DNA of 64,000 bases from Desulfuromonas sp. TF (GTDB lineage Bacteria; Desulfobacterota; Desulfuromonadia; Desulfuromonadales; ATBO01), in NCBI RefSeq assembly GCF_000472285.1, contig NZ_KI421412.1, positions 135,051 through 199,050 on the forward strand. The letters are read 5' to 3'. Every line of letters begins with the position of its first letter. Within the stretch, counting starts at the first letter, position 1. Below are positions 54,589 through 59,375 of the stretch, in pieces. Both the position numbers and the translations under genes were made by a program. A model generated the notes under the pieces. It did not search any database. It was given only the letters and a program-made list of their open reading frames with translations, and was not told where the DNA came from.

Positions 54589-54609
54589 CGCAAGCTCCCT
54601 TTGGAAATC

Positions 54610-54722
54610 GGTGATCAGTGATCGGTGATCAGTGATCGGTGATCGGTAAAAGCTCTAACGGATCACTGATCACGGATCACTGATCACCAGTTACTAATCA
54701 CTGATCACCAGTTACCAATCAC
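54610..54722. repeat. Heptamer inverted-repeat array 2 (GTGATCA/GTGATCG), hypB-hypC gap
   Basis: The left arm (54610-54646) repeats GTGATCA/GTGATCG units. The right arm (54661-54722) repeats the complementary ATCACTG/ATCACCA units and runs into the end of hypB. The same heptamer occurs at 53.2 kb, so one hyp operon contains two copies. Confidence 0.88.
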
Positions 54723-55489
54723 CGTCCTTTTCTTTTCACTCCCTCAGCCAGCCACTCATACCAGGCGTCCATCCCCTCGCCGCTGTGGCAGGAGAGCTCG
54801 AAGATGCGGATGCCCGGATTGACCCGGCGGGCGAAGTCCTTGCATTTCTCCATGTCGAAGCGCAGGTAGGGGAGCAGGTCGATCTTGTTGATCAGCATCA
54901 CGTCGGCGGCGTGAAACATGTTGGGGTACTTGACCGGCTTGTCCTCTCCCTCGGTGACGGAAAGGACGGCGACCTTGTGGTCCTCGCCCAGGTCGAAGGA
55001 GGCGGGGCAGACCAGGTTGCCGACGTTCTCGATCATCAGCAGGTCGGCGGCGTCGAGATCGAAATGCTCCACGCCGTGGCCGACCATGTGGGCGTCCAGG
55101 TGGCAGCCGGCGCCGGTGTTGATCTGCCGCACCGGCACCCCCGTGGCGGCGATGCGCTCGGCATCGTTGGAGGTCTGCTGGTCCCCTTCCAGAACGGCGA
55201 AGGAGTGCCGGCCGCCGAGGTCGGTGAGGGTCCGCTCCAGGATCGACGTCTTTCCCGAGCCGGGGGAGCTGACCAGGTTGAGGACGAAGAGCCCCTTCTC
55301 GGAGAAGAGCGCCCGGTTGCCCGCGGCCAGCCGGTTGTTCTTGCCGAGAATGTCCTCCTCGATGCGGATCGTTTTAGCGCCGGCGTCGTGCCCGTGCTCG
55401 TGCTCGTGGTGACCATGACCGTGGGAATGACCGTGGTCATGATCGTGATGGTGATGCTGCGCGGGCTCGCAGCCGCAGTCGGTGCACAT
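54719..55489 (-). CDS. hypB: Hydrogenase nickel incorporation GTPase HypB
   Basis: A 256-residue Ni-binding GTPase. The N-terminus has the high-affinity site CTDCGC followed by a His-rich stretch (residues about 12-33, His/Asp/Gly repeats) that stores nickel. The G domain has P-loop [20 protein letters not shown] and NKIDLLP. It inserts nickel with HypA. The start is ATG 55489; an in-frame open region continuing to 56374 overlaps hypA and repeats and is not coding. It starts 3 bases after the hypA stop. Confidence 0.95.
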
Positions 55490-56020: not shown

Positions 56021-56302
56021 GAAGAGGGGCCTGATCTTTTCCGCCCCCCTCAGGAGCGGGAATTTTTTCTGAAAACGGGAACTGCACCGCCAGTGCGAGC
56101 CTCGATGTTGGAGACCCATTGCGAGAAGCTCCCGTCTGACACCGGTGCGGATAAGCAAGCGGTAGTAATCCGCAGCTCTCTCGTTGATAACCACAACGAT
56201 CGGCGCAGACATGCTCCACGCCAGTGGCAGGCCCTTTTCTGCATACTCTCTCTTAGGCCAGTAAAAGAGGACGGCGCCGTCAGGGGCGCAACCCCCGGGT
56301 CT
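56021..56302 (+). repeat. R1 repeat, copy A
   Basis: A copy of a ~240-280-bp repeat with four other copies in this window. It has the core CCATTGCGAG, the invariant CTCCACGCCAGTGG (about 56215-56228) and a hairpin around GGCCAG with one mismatch in its stem (CTCTCTTA/TAAAAGAG), then GGGGCGCAACCCCC. With copy D it shares about 50 extra bases at the left end (GGGGCCTGATCT). No credible gene lies in it. Confidence 0.8.
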
Positions 56303-56317
56303 TGATGTGCCTGTTTT

Positions 56318-56465
56318 TTCTTTGACACTCTTTATGGATAAATTGTACCCTCTGGCTTTATTTGCATTGGACATGGGGGCTGTGCTGAGGTCGAAAGAGA
56401 GGGAAGTGAGAATTTTGAACCGCCTTTGCCGGTGATATGCGGCAGGGGCGGTTTTTTGCGTTATA
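56318..56465 (+). ncRNA. R2 unit copy 1, candidate small RNA
   Basis: A promoter-like pair, TTGACA (56322-56327) and TACCCT (56346-56351) with 18-base spacing, is followed after about 70 bases by a 12-bp hairpin CCGCCTTTGCCG/CGGCAGGGGCGG (56420-56451) and TTTTTT. The unit is nearly repeated at 56948-57094 with promoter, spacing and hairpin kept. No reading frame of substance lies between. This is compatible with a ~100-nt small RNA, inferred from structure only. Confidence 0.5.
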
Positions 56466-56734
56466 GGATTGAGCGGTTCGAATCCCTAAGATCTCCTCGG
56501 CTCATGCCCGCCGAAGCCTTGGCGAAGGCGGGTGCTTCTGGCCATTGGGGCTGAAGGTGGGGAGGGATATTGGGAATGATACGCGGTCGATCGGAAGTCA
56601 ACAAGTCACCAGCTCCAAGTCACCAGCGTCCCCACTGAATTCCCAGACTCGTTGGGCACTATAGGAAAGGGTCGATGAGTCTCACAGGCGGTAATTCTGA
56701 CAGTGATAAACTCGCTGTGCTTTCGATGCCTGCA

Positions 56735-56944
56735 CGCGAGGTGCAGACATGAGGTCGGTGAACCATTGCGAGAGGTCCCCGTTTACAGCCGGTGCCGATA
56801 AGTGTGCTGTGGTGATCTGCGGCGCGTTGTTAATGACCCCGGAGATCGGCACAGGAGTGCTCCACGCCAGTGGCAGGGTCCTTTCTTTGGTGACTTTCTT
56901 TGGACCAGCAAAGAAAGTCACCCGGCCGCCGGCCGGGACCGGCG
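56735..56944 (+). repeat. R1 repeat, copy B
   Basis: It shares the CCATTGCGAGAGG core and CTCCACGCCAGTGGCAGG. The hairpin is different in sequence from other copies: TGACTTTCTTTG (56891-56902) pairs perfectly over 12 bp with CAAAGAAAGTCA (56909-56920) around GACCAG. A GC-rich second stem (CCGGCCGCCGGCCGGG) follows. It directly precedes R2 copy 2. Confidence 0.8.
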
Positions 56945-56947
56945 AAT

Positions 56948-57094
56948 TTCTTTGACACTCTTTATGGATAAATTGTAACCTCTGGCTTTATTTGCATTGT
57001 GCATTGGGGATGGGATGAGATTGAGAGAGGGAAGACAGATTTGAACCGCCTTTGCCGGTGATGTGCCGGCAGGGGCGATTTTTTTGCGTTATAA
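56948..57094 (+). ncRNA. R2 unit copy 2, candidate small RNA
   Basis: TTGACA (56952-56957) and TAACCT (56976-56981) have the same 18-base spacing as copy 1, and the hairpin CGCCTTTGCCGG/CCGGCAGGGGCG (57047-57077) with a T run follows. Compared with copy 1 the hairpin is shifted by one pair at each end, yet keeps a 12-bp stem. The middle of the unit diverges more than its ends. Confidence 0.5.
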
Positions 57095-57229: not shown

Positions 57230-57739
57230 ATGTCCGAAACAATCATCATCCTCAACTACCGCCTCACCAGGGAACTCTGGCAACAGTTCCTGGATGCCCA
57301 TTTCAGCAGCAACCCCACGCTCAAAATGCGCTACCTGTGGGGCGTACTCTGCATCATGATCGGCGCGCTCGGTTTCGGCGGGTTCTATCACTCGCCCGTC
57401 ATCGCCTCGCTGCTTCTTGCCACCGGCCTGTTCGCTGTTTTGTCAAAACACCTGCTGGTCGCCAAATCCCTGCGTACAGCCTGCCGTCACCCCTTCTTCG
57501 GCGAAGAGCTGACCGTGGCGATTTCGCAGGACGAGCTCTCGGTGCGCAGCGGGACGTCCGGTTACCGCCAGCCCTGGAATAATTTCGTAGGTTACCGGAA
57601 ACGGGCTCCCGGTTTCCTGCTCTATCACGACCGGAGCGCCTTCTTCTTCGTCCCCGAGGGCGTCATGAGCGCCGGTCAGGCCAGGCGATTCAAGGATATT
57701 CTCGATGCGGCCGGTGTGCCGGACCTCTCCGGAAGCTGA
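57230..57739 (+). CDS. YcxB-like membrane protein
   Basis: A 169-residue protein with two membrane helices (LWGVLCIMIGALGFGGFYH and VIASLLLATGLFAVLS) and a C-terminal PH-like beta domain (DELSVRSGTSGYRQPWNNFV, FFFVPEGVM). This is the layout of the YcxB family of unknown function. There is no strong ribosome site before the ATG. It is isolated between repeat clusters and starts 56 bases before the SDR gene on the same strand. Confidence 0.75.
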   Translation: MSETIIILNYRLTRELWQQFLDAHFSSNPTLKMRYLWGVLCIMIGALGFGGFYHSPVIASLLLATGLFAVLSKHLLVAKSLRTACRHPFFGEELTVAISQDELSVRSGTSGYRQPWNNFVGYRKRAPGFLLYHDRSAFFFVPEGVMSAGQARRFKDILDAAGVPDLSGS

Positions 57740-58660: not shown

Positions 58661-58893
58661 CTCAAAACGGGAACTCCGCTGCCAGTGCGGCCATTGATGC
58701 CGGTGAACCATTGTGCGAGGTCTCCGTTCAAAACCGGTGCAGAGAGGCATGTCGCGATTATTCGCAGCGCCATCGTTGATGATCCCGGAGATTGGCAAAA
58801 TAGTGCTCCACGCCAGTGGCAGGCCCTTTTCTGAATACTCTTTTAGGCCAGTAAAAGAGTATTTCGCCGTCGGGGGGCGAGACCCCCGGGTTT
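58661..58893 (+). repeat. R1 repeat, copy C
   Basis: The shared core and CTCCACGCCAGTGGCAGGCCC are present. The hairpin AATACTCTTTTA/TAAAAGAGTATT (58834-58863) is a perfect 12-bp stem around GGCCAG, followed by CGGGGG-GCGAGA-CCCCCG. Overlapping frames on either strand here look like repeat-derived noise. Confidence 0.85.
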
Positions 58894-59100: not shown

Positions 59101-59375
59101 GGGGGCCTGATCTCTTCCGGCCCCCTCGGGCGCGAGGTTTTCACCGAAATGGGAACTGCACTGCCGGGGAGTAACTCGACGTTGGAGACCCATTGCGCGA
59201 GGTTTCCGTTTAGCACCGGTGAGGATAAGCACGCCGCAGTCAACGGCAAAGCTGATGTTGATGACTCTAAAGATCGGCGTAGGCGTGCTCCACGCCAGTG
59301 GCAGGCCCTTTTCTGCATACTCTTTTAGGCCTGTAAAAGAGTATGTCGCCGTCGGGGGGCGAGACCCCCGGGTTT
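59101..59375 (+). repeat. R1 repeat, copy D
   Basis: The complete repeat includes the left extension seen in copy A, the core CCATTGCGCGAGG, CTCCACGCCAGTGGCAGGCCC and the hairpin CATACTCTTTTA/TAAAAGAGTATG (59316-59345), again a perfect 12-bp stem. Compared with copy C the outermost A-T pair is C-G, a compensatory change. Confidence 0.85.

Follow-up and report, generated by a model that had tools for sequence, protein, structure and literature searches.

Paired promoter-to-terminator units in Desulfuromonas sp. TF as probable members of a class-wide family of attenuator-like leaders

Within the 64,000-nt stretch of Desulfuromonas sp. TF DNA analysed here (the window), two units of about 145 bp, R2a and R2b, start 630 nt apart and each run from a promoter-like block to a hairpin and T run (Table 1). 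A sequence-only reading of this locus had described them as candidate small-RNA genes, duplicated together with the R1 repeat that precedes each. Both promoter-to-terminator units were found again in our analysis, and their likeness goes far beyond chance given the blastn comparison (86–87% identity, E = 1.5 × 10−44). The TTGACA-N18-TAnCCT core is common to both, and the pattern of divergence is also as first described: R2a and R2b show one difference in the first ~54 bases, on the promoter side, diverge with indels in the middle and are conserved again in the hairpin, whose 12-bp core is offset by one pair at either end between the copies (CCGCCTTTGCCG/CGGCAGGGGCGG in R2a, CGCCTTTGCCGG/CCGGCAGGGGCG in R2b).

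Table 1 Features of the R2a and R2b loci, in window coordinates
Feature	Position	Strand	Basis
R1a, interspersed repeat upstream of R2a	56073..56318	+	
R2a unit, from promoter-like block through a leader lacking ATG to the terminator	56318..56459	+	sequence
R2a promoter-like TTGACA-N18-TACCCT (TTGACA 56322-56327, 18 nt, TACCCT 56346-56351)	56322..56351	+	
R2a terminator hairpin and T run (hairpin from 56419)	56419..56458	+	terminator scan
R1b, diverged R1 copy upstream of R2b	56750..56945	+	
R2b unit, attenuator-like leader	56947..57085	+	
R2b promoter-like TTGACA-N18-TAACCT (TTGACA 56952-56957, 18 nt, TAACCT 56976-56981)	56952..56981	+	
R2b tiny frame MRLREGRQI (ATG at 57015, UGA ending at 57044), G-rich SD-like block GGGGATGGG upstream	57015..57044	+	
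R2b terminator hairpin and T run (hairpin from 57045)	57045..57085	+	terminator scan
YcxB-like gene, probable downstream gene of R2b	57230..57739	+	

While both hairpins were detected by the terminator scan, neither promoter was called by a generic promoter scan, which misses them because the weak −10 element (TACCCT or TAACCT) matches at only 3/6 positions. A σ54 promoter, suggested by TGGC...TGC near the start site, was rejected since 8, not 10, bases lie between GG and GC (by eye). The earlier statement that no reading frame fits proved wrong for R2b, where an ATG opens a frame of nine codons that ends in UGA directly before the stem; R2a has CTG at the position of this ATG.

R1, the repeat beside the units, is about 230 nt long and recurs in the window (58665-58893 and 59147-59375); genome-wide there are as many as 19 copies, complete or partial. 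Its 3′ 80 nt consist of a hairpin (ATACTCTTTTAGGCC...AAAAGAGTAT) plus GGGGGGCGAAACCCCC; matches to R1 occur in 60 of the 134 genomes of the order, and the 3′ 80 nt are present in many of them. That each R2 copy follows an R1 copy holds beyond the window pair, and the association is real, because all four close R2 copies of this genome lie about 15–110 nt downstream of an R1. A recent duplication of R1 and R2 as a block is nevertheless not supported by the alignments: identity between R1a and R1b is only 63%, and R1a shares more with all the other R1 copies compared (71–78%), against 86% between R2a and R2b. Possible histories are that the elements arrived independently, that R2 underwent gene conversion or that R1 was replaced. 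No transposase was seen beside the window copies.

The units are also more numerous than the two first counted. By blastn, the genome (4.4 Mb, 17 contigs) contains four close copies, R2a, R2b, R2c and R2d, the last two lying 1.1 kb apart on the other strand, about 208 kb from the window pair, and a clear homologue is present in a relative from another family of the order. A profile built from these five sequences and searched through the order added weaker relatives, including further units in the same genome, and was followed by two rounds of covariance models, bringing the related units in the genome to about 19 (19 units at E < 0.002). The sequence-only reading had suggested looking for conserved units in related genomes, and these are present in 125 of 277 genomes of the class (E ≤ 0.001), 49 of the 125 belonging to other orders. 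The other classes of the phylum entered only as background, through 395 genomes sampled evenly from the phylum; about 378 genomes from these classes gave nine weak matches, the best at 2.9 × 10−5, so that the family is essentially restricted to one class. Plasmids gave no match to the unit, and the exact pattern GAGGGTGGGATGAG-N-ACCGCT, searched across named genomes, returned nine scattered, unrelated organisms, about the number expected by chance. One rubrerythrin-like match (L020) coincides with the start of a protein-coding gene and was taken as a chance match of the first model.

What follows the units bears on their function. Taking as the downstream gene the longest ORF that lies within 900 nt after the unit, a crude rule that mis-assigns some, we found it on the same strand in 76 of 92 non-redundant units and on the opposite strand in 16 (P = 1.6 × 10−10 against one half, a lenient null as neighbouring genes are often co-directional anyway). 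The downstream gene starts within 60 nt of the T run in 26 of these 92 units and within 150 nt in 44; the 26 closest leave little room for another promoter, and at several units only 15–24 nt separate the T run from the start codon. R2c lies 20 nt before the gene for a zinc-ribbon membrane protein, and the homologue of this gene in another family (57% identical protein) has a unit 21 nt upstream. A unit is likewise found within about 25 nt of DUF2726 genes from three genera, and R2d lies 49 nt before a SnoaL-like gene. Judged by this same-strand excess and by the closeness of the 26 genes, most units are attenuator-like 5′ leaders, the attenuator layout being given by a terminator that stands between promoter and gene.

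We therefore regard it as probable that the units form a class-wide family of 5′ leaders, in which a σ70-type promoter, a tiny frame and a terminator precede the gene and ribosomes would set the read-through. The evidence is much stronger for the cis leader and terminator layout than for the ribosome step. Comparison of the sequences establishes a terminator with covariation, a same-strand gene, in many cases scant room for a second promoter, and a spread to unrelated accessory genes among which defence genes are over-represented. Applied to the window, this reading makes R2b the probable leader of the YcxB-like gene. The window pair also supplies points against it, in that the YcxB-like gene starts about 145 nt from R2b, and R2a is followed by only about 250 nt of non-coding sequence and then the next R1. 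R2a is probably a decayed leader copy that has lost its ATG and has no gene downstream, although it may yet turn out to be an orphan small RNA.

The small-RNA explanation first proposed, in which R2a and R2b are duplicated stand-alone genes for trans-acting RNAs of ~100 nt whose target-pairing middle is diverging, draws on the complete promoter-to-terminator units, on the conserved ends around a diverged middle and on the missing gene behind R2a. Part of it carries over, as terminated transcripts of ~100 nt are still expected. The stand-alone part fares worse: a cis leader fits better than a trans-acting RNA because related units lead same-strand genes at most loci, the gaps are as short as 15–24 nt in several, and orthologous genes keep the unit. 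Moreover, the middle varies in length, has an SD-like block and a start codon and contains no conserved pairing region, and the R2 units have no Rfam match at gathering score (nor, for seven loci, any at E ≤ 1). We consider this explanation unlikely.

We examined the anatomy of the family from promoter to terminator. An exact TTGACA occurs in 56 of 96 units compared with 0.7 after shuffling, a contrast to be read with the fact that TTGACA is part of the search model, and is followed after 16–18 nt by a −10 of the form TAAYCT or TATCTT. Directly before the ATG lies a G-rich Shine-Dalgarno-like block (consensus GGAGGGTGGG), the start codon mostly stands 25–40 nt before the terminator with a purine-rich stretch between, and the terminator begins [AG]CCGCY. 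The hairpin covaries, with both sides changed in 9 of 12 pairs, and 94.8% of its cells are paired as against 39–53% with the partner strand slid. Ahead of the hairpin, it is the start region that is also conserved. The best Shine-Dalgarno energies were −9.0 in the first set of units versus −5.7 after shuffling (sd 0.4); for the second set, 41 further units, they were −8.3 versus −5.2 (sd 0.4), although both motif and start codon were in the search models and their presence in the matches is partly by construction.

Conservation of the start region bears on another explanation, that the units are portable expression cassettes, each a promoter with an insulating terminator, or remnants of repeat shuffling, giving constant low read-through and no regulation. 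The downstream genes are indeed diverse and unrelated, R1 repeats adjoin all four close copies, and units often come in pairs 0.3–4 kb apart on one strand, both in this genome (C1 399862/400968, C17 132946/133675 and C5 166563/167666, with unrelated genes between in a cassette-like array) and elsewhere (G026:C101 4016/4283; G237:C57; G201:C84; G132:C180). However, a passive stop would not need the region between promoter and terminator that is kept across orders, nor would it need the whole leader that orthologous genes retain, and we find such unregulated cassettes improbable. In one of the pairs in this genome (L040 and L041; C5 166563, 167697), the two units are nearly identical and share the predicted peptide MFERERVNG, one preceding a RelE-like toxin gene and the other, 1.1 kb on, a gene of unknown function.

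That the units are genes for tiny proteins of 8–17 residues, each with its own promoter and terminator, is very improbable: there is a Shine-Dalgarno-like block, a start codon and a short frame (MRFREDNGKNR and MAFGRKKEF, for example), and two copies in one genome (G049) differ by two synonymous changes, but the peptides are not conserved between lineages, indels shift the frames, many frames run into the hairpin and changes show no third-position excess (24, 22 and 29 by codon position, P = 0.19), and a conserved peptide is not supported. The position of the stop codon gave divided results. An in-frame stop at the hairpin foot was enriched in the first set (23 of 35 versus 6 and 9 in the other frames, P = 1 × 10−5; 17 of 29 without the model seeds, P = 0.004) and was not enriched in the second (19 of 41 versus 15 and 18, P = 0.56); the pooled value (P = 0.0009) owes its strength to the first set, and as a general rule the feature failed out of sample.

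Returning to the leader reading, we asked what might set read-through. Complementarity between leader and the 5′ arm of the hairpin showed no excess (mean z +0.26) and RNAalifold returned the terminator only, with no alternative stem; thus there is no visible RNA anti-terminator. By eye, the leader peptides contain no run of codons for one sensed amino acid. Because no complementary anti-terminator was found, we infer that read-through may be controlled by ribosomes, and because the peptides are not conserved by codon position, we propose that hairpin formation would depend on whether the leader is translated and not on which peptide it encodes. Most transcripts would stop at the terminator and yield an RNA of ~100 nt. 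A ribosome on the tiny frame would cover the 5′ arm of the hairpin and let RNA polymerase pass, whereas failed initiation or early departure of the ribosome would let the hairpin form. We put forward this dependence of read-through on translation of the tiny frame tentatively, as somewhat less than an even bet.

In the leaders of the two zinc-ribbon genes (L038, which is R2c, and L048 in G028), the frame by eye reads through the terminator and overlaps the start codon of the gene, as GTGA in R2c and ATGA in G028. At these two loci, on which the observation rests, such an overlap would also couple translation of the frame to that of the gene.

The genes behind the units are mostly accessory. 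They include PDDEXK_3 (GxxExxY-type) nucleases, ORF6N, RelE, HNH and AlbA_2 proteins, several types of restriction system and uncharacterised secreted proteins, and the defence-type matches among them extend to a ThsB-like TIR protein and a Drt8-like reverse transcriptase. PADLOC models at E < 1 × 10−22 matched 12 of 71 downstream genes and none of 71 control genes, which were taken from ten related genomes at 20 arbitrarily chosen 6-kb stretches (P = 0.0003); with the two ORF6N proteins set aside as no more than candidates for defence, the counts are 10 and 0 (P = 0.0014). Multihaem cytochromes occur among the control genes and may point to Geobacter-like relatives. Many downstream genes are not of the defence type, so the leader is not specific to defence. 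In a more far-reaching version of the leader reading, the translation-gated terminator, shared across the class, would act as a safety catch for accessory and anti-phage genes that have been shuffled. The tiny frame would sense disturbed translation, for instance in phage infection, and alter read-through to genes for restriction, TIR proteins, reverse transcriptases and toxins. We hold this version to be distinctly improbable. One type of leader before unrelated accessory genes, with defence over-represented, would point to a common layer of control in the class. It supplies an explicit model with which these genomes can be searched and their accessory and defence operons predicted, and it opens to experiment the question of how expression of costly defence genes is held down. 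At one locus (L072, 1624-2169), the beginning of the ORF after the unit matches the final 36 residues of BrxC, of BREX systems, and a Schlafen AlbA_2 domain follows; this unit is perhaps inside or next to a BREX operon.

The arrangement of promoter, short frame, intrinsic terminator and gene is that of ribosome-mediated transcription attenuators, such as the trp and his leader peptides and the antibiotic-inducible uORF attenuators, among them those before ABC-F genes. The R2 family differs from these in having no regulatory codon run, no detected mutually exclusive anti-terminator stem and no conserved peptide, and in placing one leader family before many unrelated accessory genes. In that last respect it resembles the mobile attenuators and attenuator regulons of Enterobacteria and bacilli, where one genome carries related terminators, derived mainly from insertion sequences or prophages, directly before genes that are not homologous (Naville and Gautheret 2010, PMC2965389); in the R2 family, however, promoter and start region are conserved along with the terminator, across one class. 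The toiL leader of the Escherichia coli topAI-yjhQ locus also has a short upstream frame, which ties a toxin-antitoxin locus to translation state and stress, but acts by masking a ribosome-binding site and via Rho, with no intrinsic terminator (PMC12121999), whereas the R2 family has one. A GC-IGR screen of 26 genomes likewise describes conserved leaders with short upstream frames; the uORF motifs considered here precede one kind of gene each, and Geobacter and Deltaproteobacteria go unmentioned in that paper (PMC8632094). We found no description of the R2 leader in the literature outside subscription papers, and the R2 family is apparently an undescribed family of attenuator-like leaders.

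Elsewhere in the window, at positions 54601-54724 and between two hydrogenase-maturation-like genes, GTGATCAGTGATC recurs in direct and inverted orientation about every 14 bp.
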